Assembly: GCA_028698995.1 (NCBI GenBank)
Contig: JAQVVM010000019.1
Location: 1 to 64,000, forward strand
Length of the DNA: 64,000 bases
From: Bacteroidales bacterium
GTDB taxonomy: Bacteria > Bacteroidota > Bacteroidia > Bacteroidales > PXBB01
Reading direction: 5' to 3'
Below the pieces are notes generated by a model. The model was not told the origin of the DNA and did no database searches. It worked only from the letters and a program-made list of their open reading frames with translations. Each line of letters begins with the position of its first letter. Positions within the stretch are counted from its first letter, which is position 1. The translations under genes were made by a program, and so were the position numbers. Of the stretch, positions 11,352-35,216 are shown one piece after another.

Positions 11352-11470
11352 TAACAATATTTGGTTGTTATAAAGGAAAAACAAAAATCCACAAAAAAAA
11401 CAGGAAATAGTTTACTGGTCAGTTTTTGATGTTGCCAAAATAAAAATACTAATCATATAATATAAAAATT

Positions 11471-13780
11471 ATGAAATATAATAACCTATCAGATTATCAT
11501 TCAAGGGTATTAACAAGTGTATTGTTTTTATGTGTATTTTTTTTGAGTGCACATATAAAAACATTTGGACAATCAAGGCTGAGCATAACTGCTGAACCAA
11601 TTTTTGGTTCAATAACATTAAATTCAGGGTTTTCCCCTGATGTACATACAGTTAATATTACCAGTGGTGGAACTCTTAATGTTCAAAAATTTGGTTTATG
11701 CACAGATTGCAAGGGTTTTTATTCCCCAGCTCCAAGTTATAATCTAAATTGGACTGGTAGTTCTGCTGGTCTTCGTGTTTTTTTTGAAGCAGAAGATGCT
11801 GACAAAGATGCAACGCTTATTATTCATACTCCCAATGGTACATGGATAGGTAACGATGATGCTGTTTCCGGTTGTAAAAATCCGCTGTTATTATTAGAAG
11901 AATATGGTGCAGGACAATATAATATCTGGGTAGGAAGCTATACAACAGGAGAATTAATACCCGGAATTTTGAAGATTTCAGAAAGTGATGTTTCCCCGTG
12001 TTCAGAAGGGACAGATGATGAAACATCACAGCTTGATTTAAATTCAGCACCAACATCAGGGACAGTAGCATTAACTTCCGGCTTCTCACCTGACACTCTC
12101 ACCGTAAACCTAACAAGTGGTGGACCTGTTAATGTAACCGGTATAGGTGAAGGTTGTGCTGGTTTTGCACCCAATATACCACAGGTAAAACTTCAATGGA
12201 CTGGAAGCACCAACAATCTTCGAGTATTTTTTAAGCCCGATGATAAATCAAAAGATGCAACACTCATCATCAATACACCAGAAGGCACATTAATTGGAAA
12301 TGATGATGCATTTTCAGGATGTACCAATCCCATGTTGACGCTTTCTGAACACGGAGAAGGAAATTATGATATATGGGTTGGAAGTTACAGAACAGAAGAG
12401 TTTTTCCCAGGAACGCTCTATATTACTGAACTTGAGAAAGACCCTTGTGAAACTGAAAGAAACATAACCGACAGTTTAAATGCTACGGAAGAACCAACTT
12501 TTGAGACAGTTCGATTAAGCCAAAATTTTGTTCCTGATTCTCAAACAGTTCGAGTTACCTCAGGAGGATCGGTAGATGTCTCAACATTAGGGTTAAATGC
12601 CGAATGGAGAGGTTTTGTATCAAGTGCACCTGATGTCAGACTATATTGGACAGGCAGTTCAACCAATCTGCGCATCTATTTTAAAGCAGATGACAGCTCA
12701 GGAGATGCCACACTTATTATCAAAACTCCGAATGGTACATGGCTTGGAAATGACGACACCCGTACAGGTTGTAATAACCCTATGCTGCTTTTATCAGAAT
12801 ACGGAGAAGGTGAATATAATATTTGGGTTGGAAGCTACAGCACTGGGAATTTCATCACCGGCAACTTAACTATAACAGAAAATAGCACTGAGCCATGTGA
12901 AAGCGTGATTGAATCAAGCCCAGAATTTAATCTTTCCGGTGATCCCATTTCCGGAACAGTAAGATTAAGATCTGGTTTTTCAAGCAATGCACATAGTGTA
13001 CGTATTAAAGCAGGTGGTTCAATAAATGTACAGGGTCTTTGTTCTGATTGTGTTGGTAACGTATTCCAAAACCCTGACTATGTTCTCAATTGGAGTGGTT
13101 CCACAGATAATCTGCGTATTTATTTCAAAGCCGATAATATTTCAGATGATGCAACCCTTTTAATCAAAACTCCGGATGGCACATGGATAGGAAATGATGA
13201 TTTACGTTCCGGATGCAACAATAATCCTATGCTTCAACTTCAGAATTATGGCCCTGGGATTTATTCAATCTGGGTAGGGAGCTACAACGAAAATAAAAAC
13301 ATCGCTGGAATTCTTACTATAACCGAAAAGAATGTCACGCCTTGTGATGACAATCCTGATATTGTACTTACCGGCAATCCTATCTACGGTTCTTCAAAAT
13401 TAAGGTCCGGTTTTTCACAAAGACTACGTTCAATTCCTATTATTGCATTCGGTTCAGTTGATGTTAGAAATGTTTGTTCAGGTTGTGCAGGATTCACAAC
13501 ACAAAGGCCACATTACAAGCTTAATTGGAAAGGAAGTTCAACTAATCTGCGTGTTTTTTTCGAAGCAACTGATCCGGAACAAGATGCAACACTAATAATC
13601 AAAACGCCAAACGGAGCATGGATTGGAAACGACGATTCCCGTTCCGGCTGTAACAATCCAATGTTATTGCTAAATGAATATGGCTCAGGTCATTATGAAA
13701 TATGGGTTGGAAGTTATAGCGAAGGAGTGAGTATATCCGGCAATTTAATAATTACTGAAAATGATCAACAACCAAGATAA
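11471..13780 (+). CDS. exported protein of five diverged PPC-like repeats
   Basis: This 769-residue paralogue has the same plan as the gene before it: signal sequence (about 1-35, ending TFGQS) and five repeats. The repeats are more diverged, with for example TALTSGFSPDT-like, SQNFVPDSQT and RSGFSQRLRS variants in the repeat openings. The core DATLII-TPNG-WIGNDD and the YDIWVGSY-type segment persist in nearly all copies, and so do the Cys of CxxC and SGC-NP. It lacks the structured leader RNA found before genes 1 and 3 of the cluster and has its own promoter. The higher divergence suggests it is an older duplicate, or one under weaker constraint. The function is unknown. Confidence 0.78.
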   Translation: MKYNNLSDYHSRVLTSVLFLCVFFLSAHIKTFGQSRLSITAEPIFGSITLNSGFSPDVHTVNITSGGTLNVQKFGLCTDCKGFYSPAPSYNLNWTGSSAGLRVFFEAEDADKDATLIIHTPNGTWIGNDDAVSGCKNPLLLLEEYGAGQYNIWVGSYTTGELIPGILKISESDVSPCSEGTDDETSQLDLNSAPTSGTVALTSGFSPDTLTVNLTSGGPVNVTGIGEGCAGFAPNIPQVKLQWTGSTNNLRVFFKPDDKSKDATLIINTPEGTLIGNDDAFSGCTNPMLTLSEHGEGNYDIWVGSYRTEEFFPGTLYITELEKDPCETERNITDSLNATEEPTFETVRLSQNFVPDSQTVRVTSGGSVDVSTLGLNAEWRGFVSSAPDVRLYWTGSSTNLRIYFKADDSSGDATLIIKTPNGTWLGNDDTRTGCNNPMLLLSEYGEGEYNIWVGSYSTGNFITGNLTITENSTEPCESVIESSPEFNLSGDPISGTVRLRSGFSSNAHSVRIKAGGSINVQGLCSDCVGNVFQNPDYVLNWSGSTDNLRIYFKADNISDDATLLIKTPDGTWIGNDDLRSGCNNNPMLQLQNYGPGIYSIWVGSYNENKNIAGILTITEKNVTPCDDNPDIVLTGNPIYGSSKLRSGFSQRLRSIPIIAFGSVDVRNVCSGCAGFTTQRPHYKLNWKGSSTNLRVFFEATDPEQDATLIIKTPNGAWIGNDDSRSGCNNPMLLLNEYGSGHYEIWVGSYSEGVSISGNLIITENDQQPR

Positions 13781-13832
13781 TTCAAACAATTAAACAATAA
13801 GTGGAGGCCAGAACCCACTTAAAAAAACGGGT

Positions 13833-13888
13833 CCTTCCTGTTTGGACATTGATAAACAGGGGCGTAACCGAAAAGCCAAATGAGTAGG
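13833..13888 (+). promoter_or_regulatory. structured leader RNA element, copy 2
   Basis: This is the second copy of the element at 8807-8860. The blocks CAGGGGCG and CCGAAAAGCCAAATGAGTAGG are conserved. The second helix is longer here, CCTGTTT(13837-13843) with AAACAGG(13854-13860), while its loop is unrelated in sequence. This pattern suggests RNA structure rather than protein or DNA-site conservation. It ends 20 bases before the ATG at 13909, and the following AAAGAAAGGACAATT is also shared with copy 1. Confidence 0.55.
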
Positions 13889-13908
13889 AAATTAAAGAAA
13901 GGACAATT

Positions 13909-14931
13909 ATGAAATTAATACAACTATTTAAAACAATTTTTCATTCAAGAGGCATATACAGTCTGTTATTCCTTTGTTTGTTTTTTTTAAGTGGATTCAA
14001 TAGAATCAACGGACAATCTCTTGATCCTTCAGCAGACCCTATTTCGGGTACTGTGAACTTATCTGAGGGTTTTTCACCTGATCCACATAGCATTCGTGTA
14101 ACCAGCGGTGGTTCAGTAGATGTTTCTCAATTGGGATTATGCACAGGATGCAGAGGCTTTGCATCACGTGCCCCCGATATTAAATTTCATTGGTCGGGTG
14201 GCTCAAATGACTTACGTATCTTTTTTGAAGCTGATAACAGCAGCAAAGATGCTACAATAATCATCAATACCCCTAATGGAACATGGATCGGAAATGATGA
14301 CGCTTTTTCCGGAACAAATAATCCTATGCTCAGCCTGAGAGGTTATGGCGCAGGGCGTTATGATGTCTGGCTTGGAAGCTACACTTCAGGAGATTATATT
14401 TCAGGAAACCTTACTATTACTGAATTAGACAGAAGTCCAAGAGGAACATCCTCTTCATCTTCATCATCTTCTTCATCTTCCTCTTCTTCTTCCTCAACAC
14501 AAGGTCTTAGCAGCTCAAACGACCCTGCTTTCGGCACTATCAGGTTGTCTGAAGGATTTTCACCTGACCCAAACACATTGCGCGTCACAAGTGGAGGTTC
14601 CATTGATGTTTCACAGCTGGGATTATGCAGCGGTTGCAGAGGATGGGCAGCTCAGTCACCCGATGTTAAACTTCATTGGACTGGTGGTTCTAACGATCTT
14701 CGTATTTATTTTGAAGCTGACAACAGCAGCAATGATGCAACCATTATTATTAATACACCTAATGGGACTTGGATTGGTAATGATGATGCCTTTTCCGGAA
14801 CAAATAATCCCATGCTTCAACTTAGTGGCTACGGAGCAGGACGTTACGACATCTGGATTGGTAGTTATCGTTCAGGAGAAAACATTCCGGGAACACTTTA
14901 TGTAACTGAACTCAGCAGATCTCCAAAATAA
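13909..14931 (+). CDS. exported protein of two PPC-like repeats joined by a Ser tract
   Basis: This is a 340-residue secreted protein. It has a signal sequence (about 1-36, ending INGQS) and two PPC-like domains (about 38-178 and 202-340). A linker of 17 consecutive serines encoded by mixed TCT/TCA/TCC codons (about 14450-14500) separates them. Its N-terminus and leader are close to those of the gene at 8885, so the two are recent relatives. The repeats lack the SGC Cys of the larger paralogues and read SGTNNPM instead. Serine linkers are common in secreted modular proteins. No catalytic domain is present. Confidence 0.8.
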   Translation: MKLIQLFKTIFHSRGIYSLLFLCLFFLSGFNRINGQSLDPSADPISGTVNLSEGFSPDPHSIRVTSGGSVDVSQLGLCTGCRGFASRAPDIKFHWSGGSNDLRIFFEADNSSKDATIIINTPNGTWIGNDDAFSGTNNPMLSLRGYGAGRYDVWLGSYTSGDYISGNLTITELDRSPRGTSSSSSSSSSSSSSSSSTQGLSSSNDPAFGTIRLSEGFSPDPNTLRVTSGGSIDVSQLGLCSGCRGWAAQSPDVKLHWTGGSNDLRIYFEADNSSNDATIIINTPNGTWIGNDDAFSGTNNPMLQLSGYGAGRYDIWIGSYRSGENIPGTLYVTELSRSPK

Positions 14932-24288: not shown

Positions 24289-24668
24289 GAAAAACAATCT
24301 ACTTGTTGGCAATTATTCTGGTTTTAATAGGATGTCAAAAAATTGACTATTTCCCCGACAGTTTGTTTTATTATCCGACTTGTTTTACACCTAACAAAGA
24401 CGGCGTAAATGACACATGGCAGCCATCAGGTGGTCTAGAGAAAGACTCCATCTATGCAGTGCCTAATGTTAATTTCGATACTTATTTATTGAAGATATTA
24501 AATAAAAACAACAAAGTTCTTTACGAAATCGATGCCATTTACCCCGGTTGGGACGGCACTTACAAAGGCGATACATGTCCATATGATTTTTACTACTACC
24601 GTGTTTCTTACGAATCCCTTGAAGGCAAAAAGTACAGTGATGCAGGTATGTTGGAGTTGTTGAGGTAA
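24285..24668 (+). CDS. lipoprotein consisting of a lone type B (gliding-type) sorting domain
   Basis: The protein has 127 residues: a lipobox (LVLIGC, Cys17) followed at once by a gliding motility-associated C-terminal domain (FTPNKDGVNDTWQ, then LKILNKNNKVLYE, GWDGTYKGDTCPYDFYYYRV). In known T9SS cargo this domain ends long adhesins or enzymes. Here nothing precedes it. The gene overlaps the stop of the PorP/SprF gene by four bases, so the two are translationally coupled. It could be a fixed partner or plug of that PorP/SprF protein, or the relic of a larger cargo gene. Confidence 0.82.
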   Translation: MRKTIYLLAIILVLIGCQKIDYFPDSLFYYPTCFTPNKDGVNDTWQPSGGLEKDSIYAVPNVNFDTYLLKILNKNNKVLYEIDAIYPGWDGTYKGDTCPYDFYYYRVSYESLEGKKYSDAGMLELLR

Positions 24669-25199
24669 TTTTATTTTGTATATTTTGCTTTTTCTAATTA
24701 CTGTTGTCCGATAAAAAAAATTAGTTCATAGAAAGCCTTATTATAAATGATTTTCAAGTGTTTTAATCACTGTTGTCCTAATATACAATATTATGAATAT
24801 TATGTTTGTTGTATATTTTTAAAATAATCATTTGAAAAATCGAAAAAAAGTTTTTGAAATACCGAAAAAAAGTTTTTGATACTGAGCATATAATTTCGCA
24901 GTACAGTTTGAGTTTAAGCAACTGTCTTGAGAGAAAGTGTTTTTCTCCTCTTGCTCAAAACTCACACTCAAAACTGCTTTTGTCTCCTCGGCAGTTATAA
25001 ATTCGAACCGTTTTCTGAAAGATTTGAATGCTTTATGCAGGCTTAAGGAAACAATTGGAAGCGCTATTCGATAAATATGTGACAATATACTTAATTGTAT
25101 TGTTTTGTAACCGTAGTAGTTAATAATTTTTATTAGAGCGTCACCTTTTGTCGTAATGTCTTCATATATTTGCCATCATAATATTTAAAAACAAACATT
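24669..25199. other. 531-base gap with short direct repeats, no supported gene
   Basis: ACTGTTGTCC occurs at 24700-24709 and 24769-24778 in the same orientation. CGAAAAAAAGTTTTTGA occurs at 24841-24857 and 24863-24879. An 85-codon open frame on the minus strand (24828-25085) has no recognisable feature and overlaps the repeats. The spacing of the first pair suggests the remains of a mobile element, but no transposase is present. A TATATTTG box (25165-25172) near the right edge could start the next gene. Confidence 0.4.
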
Positions 25200-26546
25200 A
25201 TGCTTTCAAAATCACGTTATGTAAGAGGTATCAAGTGCCAGAAGTCTTTATGGTTGTATAAACACAAGAAAGAAGAACAGCTTGTCAGTGAATCCGCAAT
25301 GGCTGTTTTTTCAAGAGGTACCAATGTAGGGGAGTTGGCTCAAAATTATTTTCCAGATGGAAAAATGGCTGTTTTGGAAGACTATCCAGGTTATGCTTCA
25401 GCACAAAGAACTCAGGAATTTATTATGCAAGGTGTTGAAACCATTTACGAAGCCACCTTTATATATGATAGTACCTTAGTAGCAGTGGACATCCTGCATA
25501 AAGAGGGTGGCAAATGGTTTATGTATGAGGTTAAAAGCACCAACAGCACTAAGCCGGAACACATCATTGATGTGGCAGTTCAGTATTATGTGGTAAGCGG
25601 CAGCGGTTTACCTTTGGCTGATGCTTTTCTGATGCACTTTAATCGCGATTATGTGCGCAGGGGTGACATAAATGTAAAGGAGTTATTTGTTGCTGACAGT
25701 GTTTACAGCGACATACTCTCAAATCAGGAAGAAGTGCGCTTAAAAATTCCTGAACTGTTAAAAGTGCTTGAAGGCGATGAACCTGTAATTGAAATGGGGG
25801 CTCATTGCTCAAATCCTTATGATTGTGATTTTTGTGATTATTGCGCTTCACTTTTACCCCCCAAAGATGTGGAAATAATAGAACTGAGCAACATTCCAGA
25901 GGTTAAAGAAAATGAAGTAAAAGCCTTTGTTAATGCGATTGAATATCCAATTTGCCATCTCGATTTTGAAACTATAATGCCAGGTGTGCCTTTGTTTGAC
26001 GAATCACGACCCTATCAGCAAGTGCCCTTTCAATATTCTTTACACTTACAAGAGTCTCCTGATAGTGAAATACAACATTTTCAATATCTAGCTCCCAGTG
26101 ATTTGACCATTGACCCACGTAAAGGCCTTATTGAGCAAATGATAAATGAAACAAAAGGAGGCAAAACCATATTTGTTTACCATATCCCATTTGAGCGCAC
26201 TAGAATTTACGAAATGATGAGAGATTTCCCCCAATATACAGAACCGCTCCAAAGTATCATTGACCGAATGGTTGATCTTATCATCCCTTTCAAAAGAAAA
26301 TACTACAGAACAGAAACAATGAAAGGCTCCTCATCAATTAAGAAAGTTTTGCCGGCACTTTATCCTGAGTTATCTTATGATGATTTAGCAATAAGTGAAG
26401 GCATGGCTGCCAGTAATGCTTTCCTTGATTTATATTACTGCAATGATGAGAACGTCACAAAGCAAACCCGTGAAGACCTTTTAAAGTACTGCCATTTGGA
26501 TACATTGGCAATGGTTAAGATTTTAGAAGTGTTGAAGGGAGTATAG
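25200..26546 (+). CDS. DUF2779 protein: Cas4/RecB-like nuclease plus DnaQ-like exonuclease
   Basis: This is a 448-residue putative DNA nuclease. The N-terminal half has a PD-(D/E)xK nuclease fold (VAVDILHKEGG and YEVKST). Cysteines CQKSLW (near residue 13) and CSNPYDCDFCDYC (about 201-213) could hold an iron-sulfur cluster as in Cas4/AddB-type enzymes. The C-terminal half (DUF2779) resembles a DEDD exonuclease: HLDFETI (about 255-261), FVYHIPFERTRI and a final YCHLDTLAMVKILEVL. It is the first gene of a block with a WYL regulator and several ATPases. DNA repair or defence is a fair guess. Confidence 0.82.
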   Translation: MLSKSRYVRGIKCQKSLWLYKHKKEEQLVSESAMAVFSRGTNVGELAQNYFPDGKMAVLEDYPGYASAQRTQEFIMQGVETIYEATFIYDSTLVAVDILHKEGGKWFMYEVKSTNSTKPEHIIDVAVQYYVVSGSGLPLADAFLMHFNRDYVRRGDINVKELFVADSVYSDILSNQEEVRLKIPELLKVLEGDEPVIEMGAHCSNPYDCDFCDYCASLLPPKDVEIIELSNIPEVKENEVKAFVNAIEYPICHLDFETIMPGVPLFDESRPYQQVPFQYSLHLQESPDSEIQHFQYLAPSDLTIDPRKGLIEQMINETKGGKTIFVYHIPFERTRIYEMMRDFPQYTEPLQSIIDRMVDLIIPFKRKYYRTETMKGSSSIKKVLPALYPELSYDDLAISEGMAASNAFLDLYYCNDENVTKQTREDLLKYCHLDTLAMVKILEVLKGV

Positions 26547-26633
26547 TTTATGTATAACTTAAACTTACATTTCGGAATATGATTAATTTTATTCCTGTAT
26601 ATTTGAAAATAATTTATATATTTGCAGGAAAAA

Positions 26634-27791
26634 ATGTATTATAATAGAAAATTAAAGAATGATGTTCTGAAACATCTGAAGTATTTTCCATTTGTTGTTA
26701 TACTTGGAGCCAGGCAGTCGGGAAAAACAACTTTAGCAAAAAACCTTATAGAATCGCTTGGCAAAGAAGCGATTTATCTTGATTTAGAGTTGGATAGTGA
26801 CTTGAATCGCTTATCAGAACCCGAAATGTTTTTCAATTTAAATAAGGATAAGTGTGTAATCATAGACGAGGTGCAACGCATGCCAAATATTTTTCCGGTT
26901 CTCAGAGGAATAATTGATTTGAAAAGAGTAGCCGGACGCTTTCTATTGCTGGGGTCTGCGAATTCTCATTTGCTAAAATTGAGTTCTGAGTCATTGGCCG
27001 GCAGAGTTTCTTATACAGAATTGCCCGGCCTTCTCTTAGAGGAAGTAGGCTATAACAACTTAAATGATTTATGGTTCAGAGGAGCATTCCCCGAAGCTTT
27101 TCTTTTAAGTGAAAATGATATACGTCCCATTTGGTTCAATTCATTTATTAAAACAATTACAGAGCGCGATTTACCTCAATTAGGTTTGAAAGTATCATCA
27201 AGGACAGTATTACGCTTTATACGTATGATTGCATCAAATCAGGGCGGTTTGTTAAACAAAAGTAATTTTGCTAATTCACTGAGCATTTCCAGCGTACAAG
27301 TAAGCGAAATTCTTGATTACTTAAATGCTGTTTTTTTAATCCGCATTCTTGAGCCTTATCATATAAATATTGGAAAAAGGATTACAAAATCCTCGAAGGT
27401 TTATATTAGAGACAGTGGTTTGATGCATTTTTTAAATAGTATTCCCGATTTAAATTCACTTTTTGGGAACCAACTGGTCGGTTTTTCCTGGGAAGGCTTT
27501 TGTATTGAACAGATAATTGGAAACCTTAGCGAAGCCTTTACATGGTATTTTTACAGAACGCAAGATCAGGCTGAATGCGACCTTGTTTTATGTAAAGGTG
27601 ATAAACCGCTTATATGCATCGAGTTTAAATTAAGTTTGCAACCCAAAAGGAGTAAGGGCTTTACCAATGTTATTAATGATTTAAAAACAAATGAAAATTA
27701 CATCATTATCCCTGAATGTTCTGAAGCTTATCCTTTATCGGATAATATAATGGTTACTGATTTAAAAAAGTTTATTTCTGAAAACCTTTGA
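26634..27791 (+). CDS. AAA_14 ATPase with DUF4143 domain
   Basis: This is a 385-residue P-loop ATPase. The ATG at 26634 is preferred, because a TTG at 26622 lies inside a second TATATTTG box (26617-26624). Walker A is GARQSGKTTLAK, and the Walker B-like sequence is CVIIDEVQRMP. A sensor-like LLGSANSHLL follows. The C-terminal DUF4143 domain is a degraded nuclease fold (WEGFCIEQII, YFYRTQDQAECDLVL, CIEFKLS). Such proteins are abundant in Bacteroidota and archaea, often in multiple copies, with no firm function. It follows the DUF2779 gene by 87 bases. Confidence 0.88.
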   Translation: MYYNRKLKNDVLKHLKYFPFVVILGARQSGKTTLAKNLIESLGKEAIYLDLELDSDLNRLSEPEMFFNLNKDKCVIIDEVQRMPNIFPVLRGIIDLKRVAGRFLLLGSANSHLLKLSSESLAGRVSYTELPGLLLEEVGYNNLNDLWFRGAFPEAFLLSENDIRPIWFNSFIKTITERDLPQLGLKVSSRTVLRFIRMIASNQGGLLNKSNFANSLSISSVQVSEILDYLNAVFLIRILEPYHINIGKRITKSSKVYIRDSGLMHFLNSIPDLNSLFGNQLVGFSWEGFCIEQIIGNLSEAFTWYFYRTQDQAECDLVLCKGDKPLICIEFKLSLQPKRSKGFTNVINDLKTNENYIIIPECSEAYPLSDNIMVTDLKKFISENL

Positions 27792-27861
27792 ACCTTTTAC
27801 AAATTAGGGATATAAAAAACAGAGGATATTTTATAGTAAAATTTCAAATTAATAAGCACAA

Positions 27862-28770
27862 ATGTCAAAAAGAGGAAGCATAAGAAGATACAGCTTAATC
27901 ATCGAAAAGATAGGCAGAAACAGACGACCCACATTTTCTGAAGTAAAAGATCATCTTCATGAAAATGATTTTAAAATATCTGACAGAACCCTTCAAAGGG
28001 ATATTGAAGCCATACGCGTTGAATTTGGTGTTGACATTCAATACAACCGTGCAGAAAACTACTATTTTATTGAATCTGAAAATGATGTGAATTCAGACAA
28101 TTTTTTTAGATTCCTGGGTATTGTAAACACTGCCGAATTTTTGACCGAGAGTATTAAGGACAGCAAGGATACTCTTAAATATATTATGTTCGAGTCTCAG
28201 GGCAACATGAAAGGCGTAGAGTTTCTCAAACCCCTCTTAATGGCTATTAAAAGTAAAAAAAAGGTGAGCTTTATTCATGAAAGTTTTGTTAGGGACGAAG
28301 AAAGGAAACACAACATAGAGCCCTATCTGCTTAAAGAATATCAAAACAGGTGGTACCTGATAGGCATGTACAGTGACACAAGAAAATTCCGAACTTTTGG
28401 TATAGACAGGATTAGAGAACTTGAAGTAAGCGAAACAAGCTTTGAGGGCAACCCCAATAAAAATCCAACCGATTTATTTTATCATACTATTGGACTAACC
28501 TATTCATATAATAAAGTAGAGGATGTCATCTTGTCATTTACACATTTTCAGGGTAAATATATTAAGTCCCTGCCCATGCACGAAACGCAGGAAATACTTA
28601 TTGATAATGATGAAGAACTTCGCATCAGATTAAAAATTATCCCAAACTATGAACTTGAGCAGAAAATTCTAATGTTAGGAGATACTGTCACTGTGATAGA
28701 GCCCAAAGAACTTGTTGATAATATCAAAAATTCTTTAAAAAATACCCTTAAAAATTATAAAAAGGAATAA
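27862..28770 (+). CDS. WYL-domain transcriptional regulator
   Basis: This 302-residue regulator has an N-terminal winged helix-turn-helix (about 5-65: FSEVKDHLHENDF, ISDRTLQRDIEAIR). A WYL domain (about 120-200: LLKEYQNRWYLIGMYSD, FGIDRIREL) and a C-terminal extension follow. WYL domains sense nucleic acid or nucleotide ligands and frequently control defence genes such as BrxR and CapW. It stands 90 bases before, and in the same direction as, the AAA+/M41 protease gene. An inverted repeat between the two could be a terminator or operator. It is most likely the local regulator of this module. Confidence 0.88.
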   Translation: MSKRGSIRRYSLIIEKIGRNRRPTFSEVKDHLHENDFKISDRTLQRDIEAIRVEFGVDIQYNRAENYYFIESENDVNSDNFFRFLGIVNTAEFLTESIKDSKDTLKYIMFESQGNMKGVEFLKPLLMAIKSKKKVSFIHESFVRDEERKHNIEPYLLKEYQNRWYLIGMYSDTRKFRTFGIDRIRELEVSETSFEGNPNKNPTDLFYHTIGLTYSYNKVEDVILSFTHFQGKYIKSLPMHETQEILIDNDEELRIRLKIIPNYELEQKILMLGDTVTVIEPKELVDNIKNSLKNTLKNYKKE

Positions 28771-28799
28771 AATTCTTTAAAAAAATAAAGAATTTTATT
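28766..28799 (+). terminator. 13-bp inverted repeat between WYL and AAA+/M41 genes
   Basis: AATAAAATTCTTT (28766-28778) is complementary to AAAGAATTTTATT (28787-28799). It begins inside the WYL stop codon region. It could end the WYL transcript or serve as an operator for the downstream promoter, whose candidate -7 box is TAGTTTTG at 28830-28837. Confidence 0.45.
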
Positions 28800-28860
28800 A
28801 TTGCGACATACTTTGGCGTAGTGCTTTTGTAGTTTTGTTTCATACTTAAAAATATAAAGC

Positions 28861-30915
28861 ATGAAAACAAAATTTATTGAAGCTGATGAAACTTTTATTG
28901 AAAAACAAAACACACTTGAATATGCAAGGTGTACTCTGAAACAAGAATTTATCGGTATTGACAGAATTATTGACGAAGTTATTGATAATGTCAGTTCATG
29001 GTTTTTCTTGTCAGACATACAGGAAAAACCTGTGGTTATAAACCTCTGGGGACTGACAGGAGTAGGAAAAACTTCACTTGTCAACCGACTGGTACAACTC
29101 ATTGATTACGAAGATGCATACTTCAGGTTTGATCTTGGTGAAAAAGAGGGAAGCTTTTCTTTTCGTGAATCATTGGATGAGTTGTGCGAAAATGATGACA
29201 GCAATCCGGTAATTATTGCCTTGGACGAAGTGCAACACAGCAAGACAGTAACAGGTCCATTCAGGGAGGATATTGAAAATGATAAAAACAGAATGATATG
29301 GGAGCTTTTAGACTCTGGAAAAATTCATTATATCGACTGGAAAAGAGGACTTTGGGGTTTTGAGGATACCATTGTCAAACTCAGCAGCCTTCATAGAGCA
29401 GGCGTCTTTGTCAGAAACGGACTCGTTGTCGAAGGCAGAGAACTGTATTGTAAAGAGATGAACGAAAATTTTGAAGAGGATGAAAATGTGCCTTTTGTTC
29501 CTGAGAGTGATTATGAAAAAATCATTGAATTTGCCGGCAAGACTTTAAATCTTCATCTGCTTCAGGATGTGAGAAAAATTCTGATGGAGTTCTCAGCAGA
29601 AGACAGCATTGAGTTTTTACACAAAATACTCCGAATAGGGAAAAAACCATCAGTTAAAAATTTTACAAAGTCTTTAATTTTTGTAATGGGCAACCTTGAT
29701 GAAGCCTATACGATGAGCAGTAATTTCAGTGCTGATATGGATGCTGATGAGTTTCATCGATTATCACTTAAAATAACGGTTCCAGATATTAAACAGGCTC
29801 TTCAGAACCGCTTTCGTAATGAGCAGATTGCAAGGTTAGGCAACATCCATATTATCTATCCGGCATTAGACAGGAAGTCCTATATTCAGATAATCAGAAA
29901 CGAACTTGAAAAGTATGCATCTGAACTTCATAAAAAGTTTAATATTAAAATCGATTTTGAGCAATCAGTTTATGATATAATTTACAGTGAAGGTGTTTAT
30001 CCTACCCAGGGAGTACGTCCCATATTTACGTCCATACATCAGATTTTAAAAAGTAAGCTGAGTTTGTTTCTGACTGAAATCATGTTAAAAAACCTCAATG
30101 TTGACAAAATGTTTTTTTCCATTGAAGGCAAAATTCTTAAGTGCTCTTATAATCTTAAAAAAATATTAAAACACGAGAAACAAGTTTGTATCGTTACACC
30201 ATTAGAGGACACAAGAAAAAACAGGAAGGATGATGTTCAGGCTATTACGGCTGTGCATGAAAGTGGACATGCAACACTGGCAATTGTTCTACTAAAGACA
30301 GTACCTGAGGTCATTTATTCTGTCACTTCAGATTCTGACAGTCATGGATTTGTTTATTCGAGTTTTGCATGGAAGTATATTTCCCGTAAGGAAATCATAC
30401 CGAGGGCAGCCATGATTTTGGGTGGCTTAGTTGCCGAAGAACTTGTATTCGGAAAGGAAAACCTTACAGCAGGTGCCAACAGCGATATTACCAAAGCCAC
30501 TTCATTTCTTTCAAATATGTTCAAGTTCAATGGCATGGGCAGTACGCCTCTTACTCACAGCATTCCTCAAATAGCAAGTGATTTTACCTATCATAGTTAT
30601 GAAGGGGTCGAAGAGGAAATTAAAGCAGCTATTCAGGAAGCAAAACAGTTAGCTGAAAAAACTCTTAAAAATGAAAAGCAATTGTTATTGGCTTTATCAG
30701 ATTATTTGAGCGACAACAGAATGCTGAAGAAAGATGACATAAAAAGGATTGTAAACCGCTCATTTACTCAAAAGACAAACTTTATAGAAAATGGTGAGGA
30801 TTTATTTTATCGCAACCATCTGAAAAGTGAAGTTAAAAAATCAGAGACTATAAAACCATTTTTACCTCAGTTCAATAGTGCAATATCTTTGAATAAGGGG
30901 GAGGAATGTGCTTAA
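28861..30915 (+). CDS. chimeric AAA+ ATPase (ClpB-like) fused to FtsH-like M41 peptidase
   Basis: This 684-residue soluble protein appears to be an ATP-dependent protease. The AAA+ part (about 25-425) has Walker A GLTGVGKT (64-71), Walker B VIIALDEVQ (117-125) and a sensor-1-like FVMGNLD (274-280). A Clp-type RFRNEQIARLGNIHIIYP (317-334) and a small domain with TQGVRPI (382-388) follow. The C-terminal part (about 455-640) is an M41 metalloprotease: HESGH at 466-470, GGLVAEELVFG at 521-531 and the third-ligand-type AGANSDITKAT at 537-547. FtsH joins M41 to a different AAA class and has membrane helices, and neither is seen here. The WYL gene lies just upstream. Its targets are unknown. Confidence 0.85.
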   Translation: MKTKFIEADETFIEKQNTLEYARCTLKQEFIGIDRIIDEVIDNVSSWFFLSDIQEKPVVINLWGLTGVGKTSLVNRLVQLIDYEDAYFRFDLGEKEGSFSFRESLDELCENDDSNPVIIALDEVQHSKTVTGPFREDIENDKNRMIWELLDSGKIHYIDWKRGLWGFEDTIVKLSSLHRAGVFVRNGLVVEGRELYCKEMNENFEEDENVPFVPESDYEKIIEFAGKTLNLHLLQDVRKILMEFSAEDSIEFLHKILRIGKKPSVKNFTKSLIFVMGNLDEAYTMSSNFSADMDADEFHRLSLKITVPDIKQALQNRFRNEQIARLGNIHIIYPALDRKSYIQIIRNELEKYASELHKKFNIKIDFEQSVYDIIYSEGVYPTQGVRPIFTSIHQILKSKLSLFLTEIMLKNLNVDKMFFSIEGKILKCSYNLKKILKHEKQVCIVTPLEDTRKNRKDDVQAITAVHESGHATLAIVLLKTVPEVIYSVTSDSDSHGFVYSSFAWKYISRKEIIPRAAMILGGLVAEELVFGKENLTAGANSDITKATSFLSNMFKFNGMGSTPLTHSIPQIASDFTYHSYEGVEEEIKAAIQEAKQLAEKTLKNEKQLLLALSDYLSDNRMLKKDDIKRIVNRSFTQKTNFIENGEDLFYRNHLKSEVKKSETIKPFLPQFNSAISLNKGEECA

Positions 30916-30925
30916 ATTTAAAATT

Positions 30926-31336
30926 ATGGAAAAAGAAATTACAAATTTTGAGCTTTATTATGATGGGATGTATCACATTCAATGGACAGAAGGAGAAAAA
31001 GTACACAAGTGGTATATATATTTAAGAATTGTTGAGCTCATTAGAATGCTGGAAATAGAAGGTTTAACATTTGAAGAACTTATAAAACAAGAACAACTAT
31101 TCTCCCCTATAAAATTCAAAAAGGTTAAATTAAAATACTATATAAAAGATGGTCATTTTGAAGCATATGGTTTTTTTGATGAATTTTGTGGAAATACGCT
31201 CAGGGAAAATTTTATAGTCGAACTGGTGTACGGTGACTCTTTAAAGAATCATAAACATAAAACAATCCTAGGATATGTTGAATTGATAGACGACAAGTAC
31301 AACAAAGCATGGAAGAATAGTGTTTATCGCCAGTAA
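30926..31336 (+). CDS. hypothetical protein following the AAA+/M41 gene
   Basis: This gene encodes 136 residues from ATG 30926. A GTG at 30908, which overlaps the protease stop region, would add six. The sequence is acidic-basic mixed, rich in Glu, Lys and Tyr, with predicted strands near the N-terminus (FELYYDGMYHIQW) and centre (KVKLKYYIKDGHFEAYGFF). There is no signal peptide. I do not recognise it. The very close position, 10 bases after the protease stop, suggests co-translation and a shared role, perhaps as adaptor or substrate receptor. That is inference from position only. Confidence 0.55.
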   Translation: MEKEITNFELYYDGMYHIQWTEGEKVHKWYIYLRIVELIRMLEIEGLTFEELIKQEQLFSPIKFKKVKLKYYIKDGHFEAYGFFDEFCGNTLRENFIVELVYGDSLKNHKHKTILGYVELIDDKYNKAWKNSVYRQ

Positions 31337-31486
31337 ATTATGAAAAAATTGAAAGATGAAATGAAAATAGTTAGCGCGACATGTTTTGACGTTGCATTAA
31401 ATTAAATTTGTTTTACAATGATCTTTAAAACTTAATTAAGGAATATTTATATCTTTGAATGTTGTCAAACTTTAAAATTAAGAAAT

Positions 31487-32212
31487 ATGAAAAACTACAA
31501 AAACCTTGATGAATTTATTGAAAAATTGGAACAAATTACCAAAGAAATACAAGTCGATAATAACGCAATTATTGATGGAGTAATAAATCCTGAAAAATAT
31601 TTCAATCTGTCAAAGGAAAAACCAAGAATTCTTTGGATTTTAAAAGAACCAGATTCACCAGATTATATTGGCACAAATACGTCATGGGATTATCAAGATA
31701 AGTTGTCAACTAAAAGGCTTTTAGAAACAAGAGAATACACCATTCCTACTTTTAAGCGAGTATTATATTGCTCATATGGTATTTTGTCTGATTTTAAAAC
31801 TTCTGAAAGCATTCCATTAATTTACAAAGAAGAGGTTTTTAGTATCGCAGAGTATATTGCATATATAAATGTCAGCAAAATGCCGGGAGAATCGGAATCA
31901 GAAGACGAAAATATTTCCAAGGGATATGAACGATTTAAAGAAATTTTGAAAAAACAAATAGATTCATATTCTCCTGATATCATTATTTTTGGTAATACTT
32001 TAGGGTACTTTGATAAAAATTTTTTCCAATTAAATGAAGAAACAAAAAAATATATTCCAAATGAAAACAACAGGGTGTATTATGAAACAAGTGACCGTTT
32101 ATATATAAATGCATATCATCCAGCAGTAAGGCCTAAAAATATTGGAGAAAACCAGTATTGTGATGACATTATTACAATAGCTAAAAATTGGTGGAAAAAC
32201 AAAAAAAAATGA
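31487..32212 (+). CDS. possible uracil-DNA glycosylase-fold protein
   Basis: This 241-residue cytoplasmic protein has three segments that fall in the order of the uracil-DNA glycosylase superfamily: RILWILKEPDSPD (about 46-58), PDIIIFGNT (about 163-171) and YINAYHPAVR (about 207-216). The superfamily has a catalytic loop, a core strand and a His-containing motif in the same order. The key residues are not certain, so it may be a distant or inactive member. A good -7 box TATCTTTG (31450-31457) lies upstream, so it is probably transcribed on its own. Confidence 0.5.
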   Translation: MKNYKNLDEFIEKLEQITKEIQVDNNAIIDGVINPEKYFNLSKEKPRILWILKEPDSPDYIGTNTSWDYQDKLSTKRLLETREYTIPTFKRVLYCSYGILSDFKTSESIPLIYKEEVFSIAEYIAYINVSKMPGESESEDENISKGYERFKEILKKQIDSYSPDIIIFGNTLGYFDKNFFQLNEETKKYIPNENNRVYYETSDRLYINAYHPAVRPKNIGENQYCDDIITIAKNWWKNKKK

Positions 32213-32234
32213 TTATTGGGCGTTTATTGAGCAC

Positions 32235-32417
32235 TTGACTAAAGAAAATTTTGTTTATATAACAGATGCATATAAATTGTATTATGATGTAGTTATCAAT
32301 GATGATAAAGGGAATTCCAAAAAAATAATCAGCAATAAGGATAAGGAGTATACTGATGTGAAATTAATTTCATTTAAAAATAATAATACTATGATTGATA
32401 TTAAATACATCGTTTAG
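32235..32417 (+). other. short open frame, possible gene remnant
   Basis: The frame reads as protein-like sequence from about 32208 (DYWAFIEHLTKENFVYITDA) to the stop at 32417. Its only start is a TTG at 32235, giving 60 residues. It overlaps the end of the preceding gene at an A-run, in another frame. It could be the tail of a truncated gene or a product of frameshifting at the A-run. No family is recognised. Confidence 0.3.
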
Positions 32418-32476
32418 AAAAGTTTATTATTGTACATTTTTAAGTAAATGACAACCCCCATCAATTAATAAAAAAT

Positions 32477-33427
32477 ATGATAAACACAAACGATTATAAA
32501 GCTGTATTATTCGGCGTTGCAGTTGGAGATGCCCTTGGCGTTCCCGTAGAGTTTAAAAGCAGGAAAACAATAAACGAAAATCCTGTAACTGATATGTTGG
32601 AATTCGGAACCCACTACTTACCAGCTGGTACCTGGTCGGATGACAGTTCTTTAACATTTTGCCTGGCAGAAGCATTGACAGTTGATTTTGATTTAAATAT
32701 TATTGCCCGAAATTTTATAAAATGGCAAAGTGAGAATTACTGGACGCCCTCAGGATTTGTATTTGACATTGGCAACGGCACAAGAGACGCTATAAAGCAA
32801 TTGAAACTTGGAGTCAAACCTGACTTAGCAGGAGGAACAGATGATAACTCTAATGGTAATGGCTCTCTGATGAGAATATTGCCTTTACTTTTTTACATTC
32901 ATGACAAACCAATCAACGAAAGATTTGAAATTACCAAACAAGTATCATCCATCACTCACCGGCACATCCGTTCTGTAGTTGCGTGTTTTTATTATCTTGA
33001 GTTTGCCCGACAGATATTATCAGGTATCGACAAGTTTGATATATACAAAAATCTGCAAAAAGAAGTTTCAGAATATCTGATATCTATTTCAATAAAGCCA
33101 ACAGAAATTGCTTTATATAACCGCTTACTTAAAAGAAATATTTTTGAACTAGAAGAAAAGGAAATTTACAGCGGTGGTTATGTTTTACACACACTTGAAG
33201 CCAGCATTTGGTGTTTACTCTCAACAGAAAATTACAAAGATGCAGTTCTGAAAGCAGTTAACCTGGGTGAAGATACTGACACAACCGGAGCGGTAACAGG
33301 AGGACTTGCCGGACTACTTTATGGGTATGACAGTATTTCCAAAAATTGGGTTGATAAAATTGCACGGAAGAAGGATATTGAGGAATTGGGGAAGAGGTTA
33401 AGTGATAAATTTAAAATTGTTATATGA
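32477..33427 (+). CDS. ADP-ribosylglycohydrolase family protein
   Basis: This 316-residue enzyme is of the DraG/ARH family, which removes ADP-ribose from proteins, nucleic acids or small molecules using two metal ions. The metal-binding segments are clear: GVAVGDALGVPVEF near residue 13, TWSDDSSLT near 54-62, NGNGSLMRILPL, SITHRH and the C-terminal GEDTDTTGAVTGGLAG. It is full length. It stands alone behind a 59-base gap after the short frame at 32235-32417. In an accessory block it could reverse a toxin-type ADP-ribosylation or act on a nucleotide signal, but housekeeping roles are equally possible. Confidence 0.9.
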   Translation: MINTNDYKAVLFGVAVGDALGVPVEFKSRKTINENPVTDMLEFGTHYLPAGTWSDDSSLTFCLAEALTVDFDLNIIARNFIKWQSENYWTPSGFVFDIGNGTRDAIKQLKLGVKPDLAGGTDDNSNGNGSLMRILPLLFYIHDKPINERFEITKQVSSITHRHIRSVVACFYYLEFARQILSGIDKFDIYKNLQKEVSEYLISISIKPTEIALYNRLLKRNIFELEEKEIYSGGYVLHTLEASIWCLLSTENYKDAVLKAVNLGEDTDTTGAVTGGLAGLLYGYDSISKNWVDKIARKKDIEELGKRLSDKFKIVI

Positions 33428-33597
33428 GTAATTTAATAATAGTTTAAAATAACACTAAAATCTATAGCATGACTAAAACAGTATCAAGTGAAGTGAACAG
33501 TAAATCATCGGAAAAACTTTATCAAGTGGTATCTCTACTTTAGAAACAAAGAAATTTAAAGGTTTTCTTAGCTATATAGGGATATCTGCATACTATA

Positions 33598-33700
33598 TAA
33601 AAAAGAGGGGTTGTGAAACCCCTCAGTTTGCAGTATATCCGTAAAGTCTATTGCTGACAGGTTGCTCCTCAGCAGAGCCTGCTTCCTCTTCAACTTTACA
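33598..33700 (-). ncRNA. probable small RNA of about 100 nt with own promoter and terminator
   Basis: On the minus strand a -7 box TAATTTTG (plus 33704-33711) is followed by a stretch that folds. GTAAAGT (33693-33699) pairs with ACTTTAC (33641-33647). TGCTGA (33669-33674) pairs with TCAGCA (33652-33657). The end is an 8-bp hairpin (33605-33624) followed by TTTTTT, a classic terminator. No start codon opens a convincing reading frame. The size and layout fit a small regulatory RNA, and I recall a Bacteroidota 6S-like RNA (6S-Flavo) of similar size but cannot confirm identity. The rest of 33428-33990 is AT-rich without genes. Confidence 0.55.
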
Positions 33701-33990
33701 TGACAAAATTATTAAATTGAAATTAAAAAATCACCAACCATTTTTTGCCACATTACCATTTTTTTATTGTATTTTATTAAAAAATAGTCATTCTATTGAC
33801 CATTTTTTTTAATATTTCGGTCAGTGTGTTGATTGTTTTTTAACTAATTATGGGGAATACCATACCCCTATGGTTGTTTGGTTTTTAATATTAAAAGTAT
33901 AGTTAAATTAAAACTCCCTATGGTGGCTATTTTATTTTCCTAACACAACAAACCTCCATACTCACACTCTAAACTCATTTCTACCTTTAG

Positions 33991-34063
33991 TCTCCCCGGC
34001 GGGATTCGAACCCACGACCCATTGATTAAGAGTCAATTGCTCTACCAGCTGAGCTACGGAGAG
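33991..34063 (-). tRNA. tRNA-Lys (anticodon CTT)
   Basis: This 73-nt cloverleaf reads on the minus strand. The acceptor CTCTCCG pairs with CGGGGAG, with discriminator A. The D arm is GCTC/GAGC. The anticodon stem ATTGA/TCAAT encloses the loop CTCTTAA. The T arm GTGGG/CCCGC encloses TTCGAAT. CCA is not encoded. A TAACTTTG box (plus 34083-34090) lies 19 bases upstream of its 5' end. Confidence 0.96.
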
Positions 34064-34131
34064 AATTTATAATTTAAGCCAACAAAGTTACAAATTTAAA
34101 AATTTGTTGTAATTAATATTAACTAATTATT

Positions 34132-34163
34132 TTTGTATATTGTTTTATTGTTTTTTATCTTTG
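34132..34163 (+). promoter_or_regulatory. Bacteroidota-type promoter before the surface-protein pair
   Basis: TTTG at 34132-34135 and TATCTTTG at 34156-34163 are separated by 20 bases, a full match to the -33/-7 consensus. It lies 27 bases before the ATG at 34191. Confidence 0.65.
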
Positions 34164-34190
34164 GTTTTTATTAACTAATTCATTAAACCC

Positions 34191-35216
34191 ATGAAAAAGA
34201 TGACATTTATTATGCTATCAGCTTTTTTTCTTTTTGCTATCACAACACAAGCAGCCAGGCACAGAGTAAACAACCAAGGTATGGGAGCCCAATTCTCTAC
34301 CATTAATGCGGCTATTGGTGCAGCTTCGGCAGGAGACACTATTTATGTGGAAGGCTCCCCTGTGAGCTATAACGGATTTTCTGCAAGTAAAAAAGTGATT
34401 ATTATTGGTCCCGGATATTTTCTTGCAAACAACCCTGAAACTCAGGCAAATCTGTATAGTGCCACTGTAAGTAACAGCACATTCAATAATGGTTCTTCGG
34501 GATCTGTGGTAATGGGACTTAAGTTCTATACGGGTGGTTTTTATACATGCCTCGATGTAAATGACGACAGTATAACGGTCAAGAGAAATAGTTTTTATCT
34601 TTCATCTACTCACAGCGATAATCAACCTGCATTAAGGGTGTATTCATCAAAAACAATTATTTCTCAGAATTATATTGAACGTGTAGGTAATGGATATGCT
34701 TTGAAAATTGAATCTAATAATTGCACTGGTATTATTATAAATAATAATTATATATGCCATGTTTCAGGAGGGACTGCATTTTCAAATCCTGCCTCCACGA
34801 GTATTAATTTTACTCATAATGTTCTTTCGGGTAGTGTATCTGTTAACAATGCCAATGTTTTTAATAACATAATGATTAGTGGCAGTTTTGGCCATACAAA
34901 CAGTGTCGTAAATAACAATATTTGTAATGGCACTCAGTTTCCTGTTACAGGTAATTTACAGAATGTGGACATGAATCTTGTATTCGACCTTACTGACCCC
35001 AGCCCAGATGGTAAATATAGATTAATTGATGACATTACCAATCCTGCCATTGGTTACGGAGCCCTCAGTGCGGATTGCGGTATGTTTGGCGGTAGTGACC
35101 CCTACAAACTATCTGGTATTCCGGCTGTCCCGGCTATTTATTTTTTCTATGCTCCCGTATCAGGATCCGCTAACAGCAATTTGCCTTCAAATATTAAAAT
35201 AAAATCTCATGATTAA
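34191..35216 (+). CDS. secreted right-handed beta-helix-like protein
   Basis: This 341-residue exported protein has a signal peptide (1-21, ending TQA). The opening QFSTINAAIGAASAGDTIYV is typical of the N-cap of parallel beta-helix proteins. The body has regularly spaced strands with Asn ladders (TVKRNSFYL, IISQNYIERV, GIIINNNYICHV, NNIMISGSF). It has no obvious T9SS sorting domain at its own C-terminus. The last three codons overlap the start of the next gene, whose product carries one, so the pair is probably coexpressed and may act together at the surface. Confidence 0.72.
   Translation: MKKMTFIMLSAFFLFAITTQAARHRVNNQGMGAQFSTINAAIGAASAGDTIYVEGSPVSYNGFSASKKVIIIGPGYFLANNPETQANLYSATVSNSTFNNGSSGSVVMGLKFYTGGFYTCLDVNDDSITVKRNSFYLSSTHSDNQPALRVYSSKTIISQNYIERVGNGYALKIESNNCTGIIINNNYICHVSGGTAFSNPASTSINFTHNVLSGSVSVNNANVFNNIMISGSFGHTNSVVNNNICNGTQFPVTGNLQNVDMNLVFDLTDPSPDGKYRLIDDITNPAIGYGALSADCGMFGGSDPYKLSGIPAVPAIYFFYAPVSGSANSNLPSNIKIKSHD

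Follow-up and report, generated by a model that had tools for sequence, protein, structure and literature searches.

The WYL regulators BrxR and CapW are precedents in anti-phage defence (PMC9122601, PMC9122588), and the inverted repeats through which BrxR acts as a repressor have 5-bp spacers, two such repeats being present in one island (PMC9122601). Other WYL proteins, PafBC and DriD, respond to single-stranded DNA, which activates them, and PafBC works from a position between the promoter and sigma domain 4 (PMC11804915). Ribosomes that have been cleaved in the decoding centre are rescued and repaired by PrfH together with RtcB2 (PMC9223846), and RFH-RtcB has been interpreted as a response to RNase effectors (PMC6514570); a protease partner is mentioned in neither PMC6514570 nor PMC9223846. 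Here, we describe a protease that is found in both of these contexts, starting from a 64,000-nucleotide stretch of a Bacteroidales contig (the window), in which its gene lies directly behind a WYL gene. No published account of the protease was found in the literature searched, which did not extend to most subscription titles or to the main survey of RNA repair.

We found that the gene at 28861-30915 (+ strand) encodes a soluble fusion protein of 684 residues, in which residues ~1-442 form a Clp/HSP100 D2-type AAA+ motor and residues ~454-644 an M41 zinc peptidase. The first-pass annotation had read the locus as a WYL gene, this fusion and a 136-residue frame 10 bases further on, and both its open reading frames and its motifs were borne out, with GLTGVGKT starting at residue 64, VIIALDEVQ at 117 and RFRNEQI at 317 in the motor, and HESGH at 466, GGLVAEELVFG at 521 and AGANSD at 537 in the peptidase. 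The hybrid architecture that it had proposed is also recovered by database and structure searches. Pfam assigns Peptidase_M41 at 459-630 (3.4e-19) and ClpB_D2-small at 336-406 (2.4e-7), and a PDB search using a profile of 92 relatives aligns the N-terminal half to ClpC, ClpE and ClpB D2 chains and the C-terminal half to FtsH chains. The AF2 model (pLDDT 90.9, pTM 0.84) gives the same division when compared with VIA-align, where residues 1-442 match Skd3 with Z 23.3 (Z 22-23 across Skd3, ClpC and ClpB) and residues 454-644 match the AFG3L2 peptidase with Z 21.0 and rmsd 3.0. Between Walker B and sensor 1 the motor carries an extra, mostly helical insert of ~130 residues. A 19-residue hydropathy scan revealed no N-terminal hydrophobic segment or transmembrane anchor; the maximum of 1.55, at residue 512, belongs to a helix of the M41 domain, and the protein is thus predicted to lack transmembrane helices, in agreement with the earlier claim. 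These features point to a cytoplasmic, predicted ATP-dependent protease.

We next consider the conservation of the fusion across 136 distinct full-length relatives, all of which keep the fused domain order. This retention goes beyond chance. Of the 136, 135 retain both HExxH and D542, the third zinc ligand; the single exception is a gene truncated where its contig stops. The loss of zinc ligands in most homologues, which had been named as grounds against the earlier reading, is thus not observed. Every aligned row has K70 of Walker A and D122 of Walker B, E123 of Walker B is found in 134, and the sensor-1 and arginine-finger residues are invariant or nearly so. Among the HSP100/Clp features we identified the D2-small domain, Walker A and B, sensor 1 and sensor 2; a GYVG-type pore loop 1 was not found, and the segment between Walker A and Walker B is short and variable. 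The family libraries contain no model of the whole chain, with NCBIfam, PHROGs and PADLOC recognising the halves only. PADLOC matches no described defence model and returns weak partial hits (LmuB, 0.0035; PDC-S01, 0.007), and NCBIfam FtsH_fam covers only residues 407-598 at 58.8 bits against a cut-off of 600. An identity as housekeeping FtsH or ClpB was rejected, since that score is far below the cut-off and the ordinary FtsH is a separate gene in the window's genome. The fusion is a real, well-conserved hybrid protease family without a name.

Its distribution is rare and patchy. Among 60 near relatives, six have a match at E 1e-10 and only three, the window genome among them, carry the full-length fusion; across the phylum it occurs in 5 of 395 genomes, far from universal in Bacteroidota and in line with the earlier view that it is not the housekeeping enzyme. 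We collected 405 fusion loci from GTDB contigs, of which 80 were kept for analysis, and 61 from IMG/VR contigs. Several of the IMG/VR contigs hold genes for a major head protein, Gp23, a clamp loader or UvsX, and these are genuine phages. Carriage by a plasmid or a sequenced phage was rejected, as the plasmid collection gave no match and the 50,697 curated phage records gave matches to the M41 part only, with no full-length fusion.

Upon examining the gene upstream, we find a 302-residue HTH-WYL-WCX transcription regulator (27862-28770, + strand; Pfam WYL 3.4e-14, WCX 1e-8), the HTH and WYL residues of which are conserved in 43 relatives, with the N-terminal HTH region defined by alignment only. 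Of 84 host loci, a set chosen as nearest to the window protein and for this reason one in which the WYL-linked branch is over-represented, 48 have a WYL gene no more than five genes away from the protease. In the same loci, WYL genes make up 49 of 652 near genes and 3 of 422 more distant genes (odds ratio 11, p 4e-8), so the association that the first-pass annotation had proposed holds when adjacency is scored. In four loci (L019, L021, L023, L043) a DnaQ/RNase T-like exonuclease gene is the immediate upstream neighbour of the protease, separating it from the WYL gene at those loci where one is seen, with the WYL-box described below still directly before the protease. In another locus (L018, G324), the protease gene overlaps that of a 362-residue probable membrane protein by one base, instead of having a WYL or RtcB neighbour. 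An AT-rich inverted repeat, AAAATTCTTT...AAAGAATTTT, is located between the WYL and protease genes of the window at 28769-28797 and is possibly a terminator.

Upstream of the protease, the WYL-linked loci share a promoter element that consists of CGACA-N5-TGGCG, exactly 11 nt and then TAnnTTTG, the Bacteroidota -7 box. In the window it spans 28804-28837 (+ strand), with CGACATACTTTGGCG, 11 nt and the -7 box TAGTTTTG, 23 nt ahead of the protease ATG. Two further WYL-boxes are found on the same strand, one at 25139-25172, 27 nt before the ATG of a DUF2779 gene, and one at 31377-31410 before a gene for a 241-residue protein. Of 47 WYL-linked loci, 24 have the strict pattern ahead of the protease, compared to 0.025 expected from shuffles, as do 7 of 23 other host loci, several of them on contigs cut near the gene; it is absent from all 14 RtcB/PrfH-linked and all 51 viral loci. 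A position matrix raises the counts to 34 of 47 and 8 of 23, figures that are partly circular, being drawn from the regions on which the matrix was trained. No recognisable box is seen in 16 of 50 loci with a WYL gene. At several other protease loci the box also precedes the WYL gene itself, and at two loci both half-sites are altered jointly to TATCA-N5-TGATA at about the same spacing. From this conserved element we infer that the WYL protein binds the box as a candidate operator. The fixed gap of 11 nt to the -7 box fits activation, though repression is also compatible.

An independent exact-pattern scan of the 395 genomes returned 48 box matches, against none for a reversed control. In one family the box precedes WYL genes in five genomes, as well as genes for proteins that, judged from their sequence, are patatin-like, M15-peptidase-like or secreted. 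Within one Bacteroidota genus (L194, L206, L209, L214, L219; neighbours L197, L198, L207) up to eight WYL-boxes per genome were observed, before a WYL gene and genes for patatin-like, M15-peptidase-like and large secreted proteins; these boxes may define a WYL regulon made up of toxin or injection clusters. A second WYL-box cluster is located on another contig of the window's own assembly (C43; L192, L193), which, given the assembly's estimated contamination of 3.4%, may be foreign. It comprises a WYL gene, a 560-residue AAA ATPase, DUF2779, the Type I RM genes HsdM and HsdR and a SprT-like protein; the fusion was not seen in the stretches read around it.

The arrangement of boxes in the window suggests a local WYL regulon in which three transcription units extend from 25139 to about 33427. 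The first begins with a DUF2779 protein (25200-26546, + strand; Pfam DUF2779 2.1e-39), a predicted nuclease with a Cas4-like region (PADLOC Cas4 5e-6), and DUF2779 genes recur near 14 other protease copies in the neighbour clustering. An AAA_14/DUF4143 ATPase (26622-27791, + strand; Pfam) is probably co-transcribed with DUF2779 and the WYL gene, and phmmer found no counterpart of it near other protease copies. The 136-residue protein (30926-31336, + strand), which begins 10 bases past the protease stop with its ATG at 30926, has no Pfam match, belongs to no assigned family and has no counterpart by phmmer near any other protease copy. Its place in the module, as first proposed, and a role as conserved partner were accordingly rejected, and its lack of conservation marks it as probably cargo or a chance neighbour. 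The 241-residue protein (31487-32212, + strand), also of unassigned family, occurs in 4 of 247 genomes of the class and has no PDB match; an ADP-ribosylglycohydrolase (32477-33427, + strand; Pfam 9.3e-73), with only a weak counterpart near other protease copies, possibly shares its unit. A tRNA-Lys at 33990 is unsupported as an integration site, because no repeat of its 3' end was found in 24500-34400, and thus no island boundary is shown.

In other branches of the tree, the protease gene follows RtcB and PrfH immediately; KptA often comes after it, and RlaP is sometimes present as well. RtcB is nearby in 14 of the 84 host loci, far above a rough chance estimate. The RtcB/PrfH loci are scattered in the tree, with at least seven changes forced by supported branches; one clade, from Dysgonomonas and Tannerella, is nested among WYL-linked copies, and a second is made up of Bacteroidota and Ignavibacteria. 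The WYL and RtcB/PrfH contexts are seldom seen together in one locus, and the window has neither RtcB nor PrfH at this locus and no PrfH elsewhere in its genome. Phage contigs show the same neighbours, with PrfH by the protease and a major head protein on one (L145), and RtcB beside the protease on another (L147). On the latter, at 11359-14300, the RtcB gene just after the protease appears to be interrupted by the insertion of an HNH/homing-type endonuclease gene. Three Dysgonomonas loci (L044, L056, L058) hold, between PrfH/RtcB and the protease, a gene for a ~197-residue protein with a HELGHH zinc motif and no Pfam match.

Taken together, a role in conflict or damage response rather than housekeeping is likely. 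Our preferred reading, to which we assign a probability of roughly one half, is a WYL-switched ATP-dependent protease of damage or conflict islands, with a link to translation or RNA damage favoured. The Clp-type AAA+ ring would unfold proteins and feed them to the M41 ring on the same chain, presumably as a hexamer. Here and at the most closely related loci, the WYL protein would bind the 15-bp inverted repeat at its fixed place over the -33 region of the promoter and, by analogy with PafBC and DriD, may sense damaged nucleic acid, upon which it would turn on or release the small local regulon, and the protease would then clear proteins within the damage or conflict response. The substrates could be tied to damaged translation, such as truncated released chains or proteins bound to damaged ribosomes or tRNA; this is a guess that we would expect to fail more often than not, prompted by the repeated recruitment into RtcB-PrfH operons and by PrfH and RtcB beside phage copies. 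Against the preferred reading, the pore-loop region is variable and lacks the Clp GYVG, so that threading remains a presumption, a substantial share of WYL-bearing loci show no box, and the rarity with which WYL and RtcB/PrfH co-occur, along with a window genome devoid of PrfH, means that one shared function for all copies is inferred.

A broader proposal, which we put forward tentatively, is that the family is the proteolytic arm of RNA repair and ribosome rescue in bacteria-phage conflict, switched in Bacteroidota by WYL proteins through a shared, undescribed operator that keeps a constant spacing to the -7 box. If true, it would give the few known kinds of ATP-dependent protease a further architecture, tie targeted proteolysis to the repair of cleaved RNA and the rescue of stalled ribosomes, and provide a sequence-defined Bacteroidota WYL operator by which conflict cargo could be found by promoter rather than by homology.

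The defence or stress module envisaged in the first-pass annotation stands in part, with defence suggested indirectly: the neighbours include Type I RM, GmrSD-like, DUF2779 and PD-(D/E)XK genes, but RtcB-PrfH forms another large context and many copies are located on phage-type contigs. In its strict form, an anti-phage effector that the WYL protein holds off until infection, when phage or essential host proteins are degraded in abortive infection, is in our judgement unlikely. BrxR and CapW are precedents for such a switch (PMC9122601, PMC9122588), and the boxes share islands with those same neighbours, but an effector that does nothing except kill its own cell is hard to square with the RNA-repair operons and the phage copies, and the PADLOC matches to the protease are weak and partial only. 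We give somewhat less credit still to a DNA-damage protease, in which the WYL protein responds to single-stranded DNA like PafBC and DriD and the protease removes crosslinked proteins or those bound to DNA. The box is located where PafBC-type sigma adaptation acts, and HIRAN, UVR-motif, SprT-like and DnaB-like proteins are among the WYL-box cargo at other sites; yet the SprT-like match is below the Pfam cut-off, and the RtcB-PrfH-KptA operons are left unexplained. An ordinary accessory stress protease, a soluble FtsH/Clp back-up that gene transfer has spread and that plays no part in conflict, would suit the derivation of both halves from quality-control enzymes, but appears improbable in view of the patchy distribution, the dedicated WYL-box, the repeated RNA-repair linkage and the copies on phage contigs. 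Finally, a phage chaperone-protease for virion assembly or host takeover, with host copies as captured phage genes, draws on the 61 IMG/VR loci, some by head protein, clamp loader and UvsX genes, but is highly improbable given the large separate clades of host copies and the absence of a full-length relative among the 50,697 phage records.

Upon comparison with known systems, the fusion shares with FtsH, YME1 and AFG3L2 the M41 domain, HExxH, the third Asp ligand and the combination of AAA+ ring and peptidase on one chain. It differs from them in a motor of the Clp/HSP100 D2 type rather than the classical AAA type, in the lack of a membrane anchor, in the extra motor insert and in being accessory and linked to WYL or RNA repair. 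With the D2 ring of ClpC and ClpB and with human Skd3 (CLPB) it shares the AAA+ fold, the D2-small C-domain and the Clp-type arginine-finger and sensor-2 segments; unlike these, it has a single AAA+ module, a pore-loop region without GYVG and its own M41 peptidase rather than ClpP docking. The regulator resembles BrxR, CapW and PafBC-DriD as an HTH-WYL(-WCX) protein linked to inverted repeats, with several boxes in one island recalling BREX R-BOX1/2 and a box position resembling the -26 element usage of PafBC, but the box sequence is new, the promoter is of the Bacteroidota -7 type and the target genes are others. With the RtcB2-PrfH operons there is direct overlap, as some protease branches lie inside such operons with RtcB, PrfH, KptA and RlaP, in contrast to the window locus, which is devoid of PrfH.
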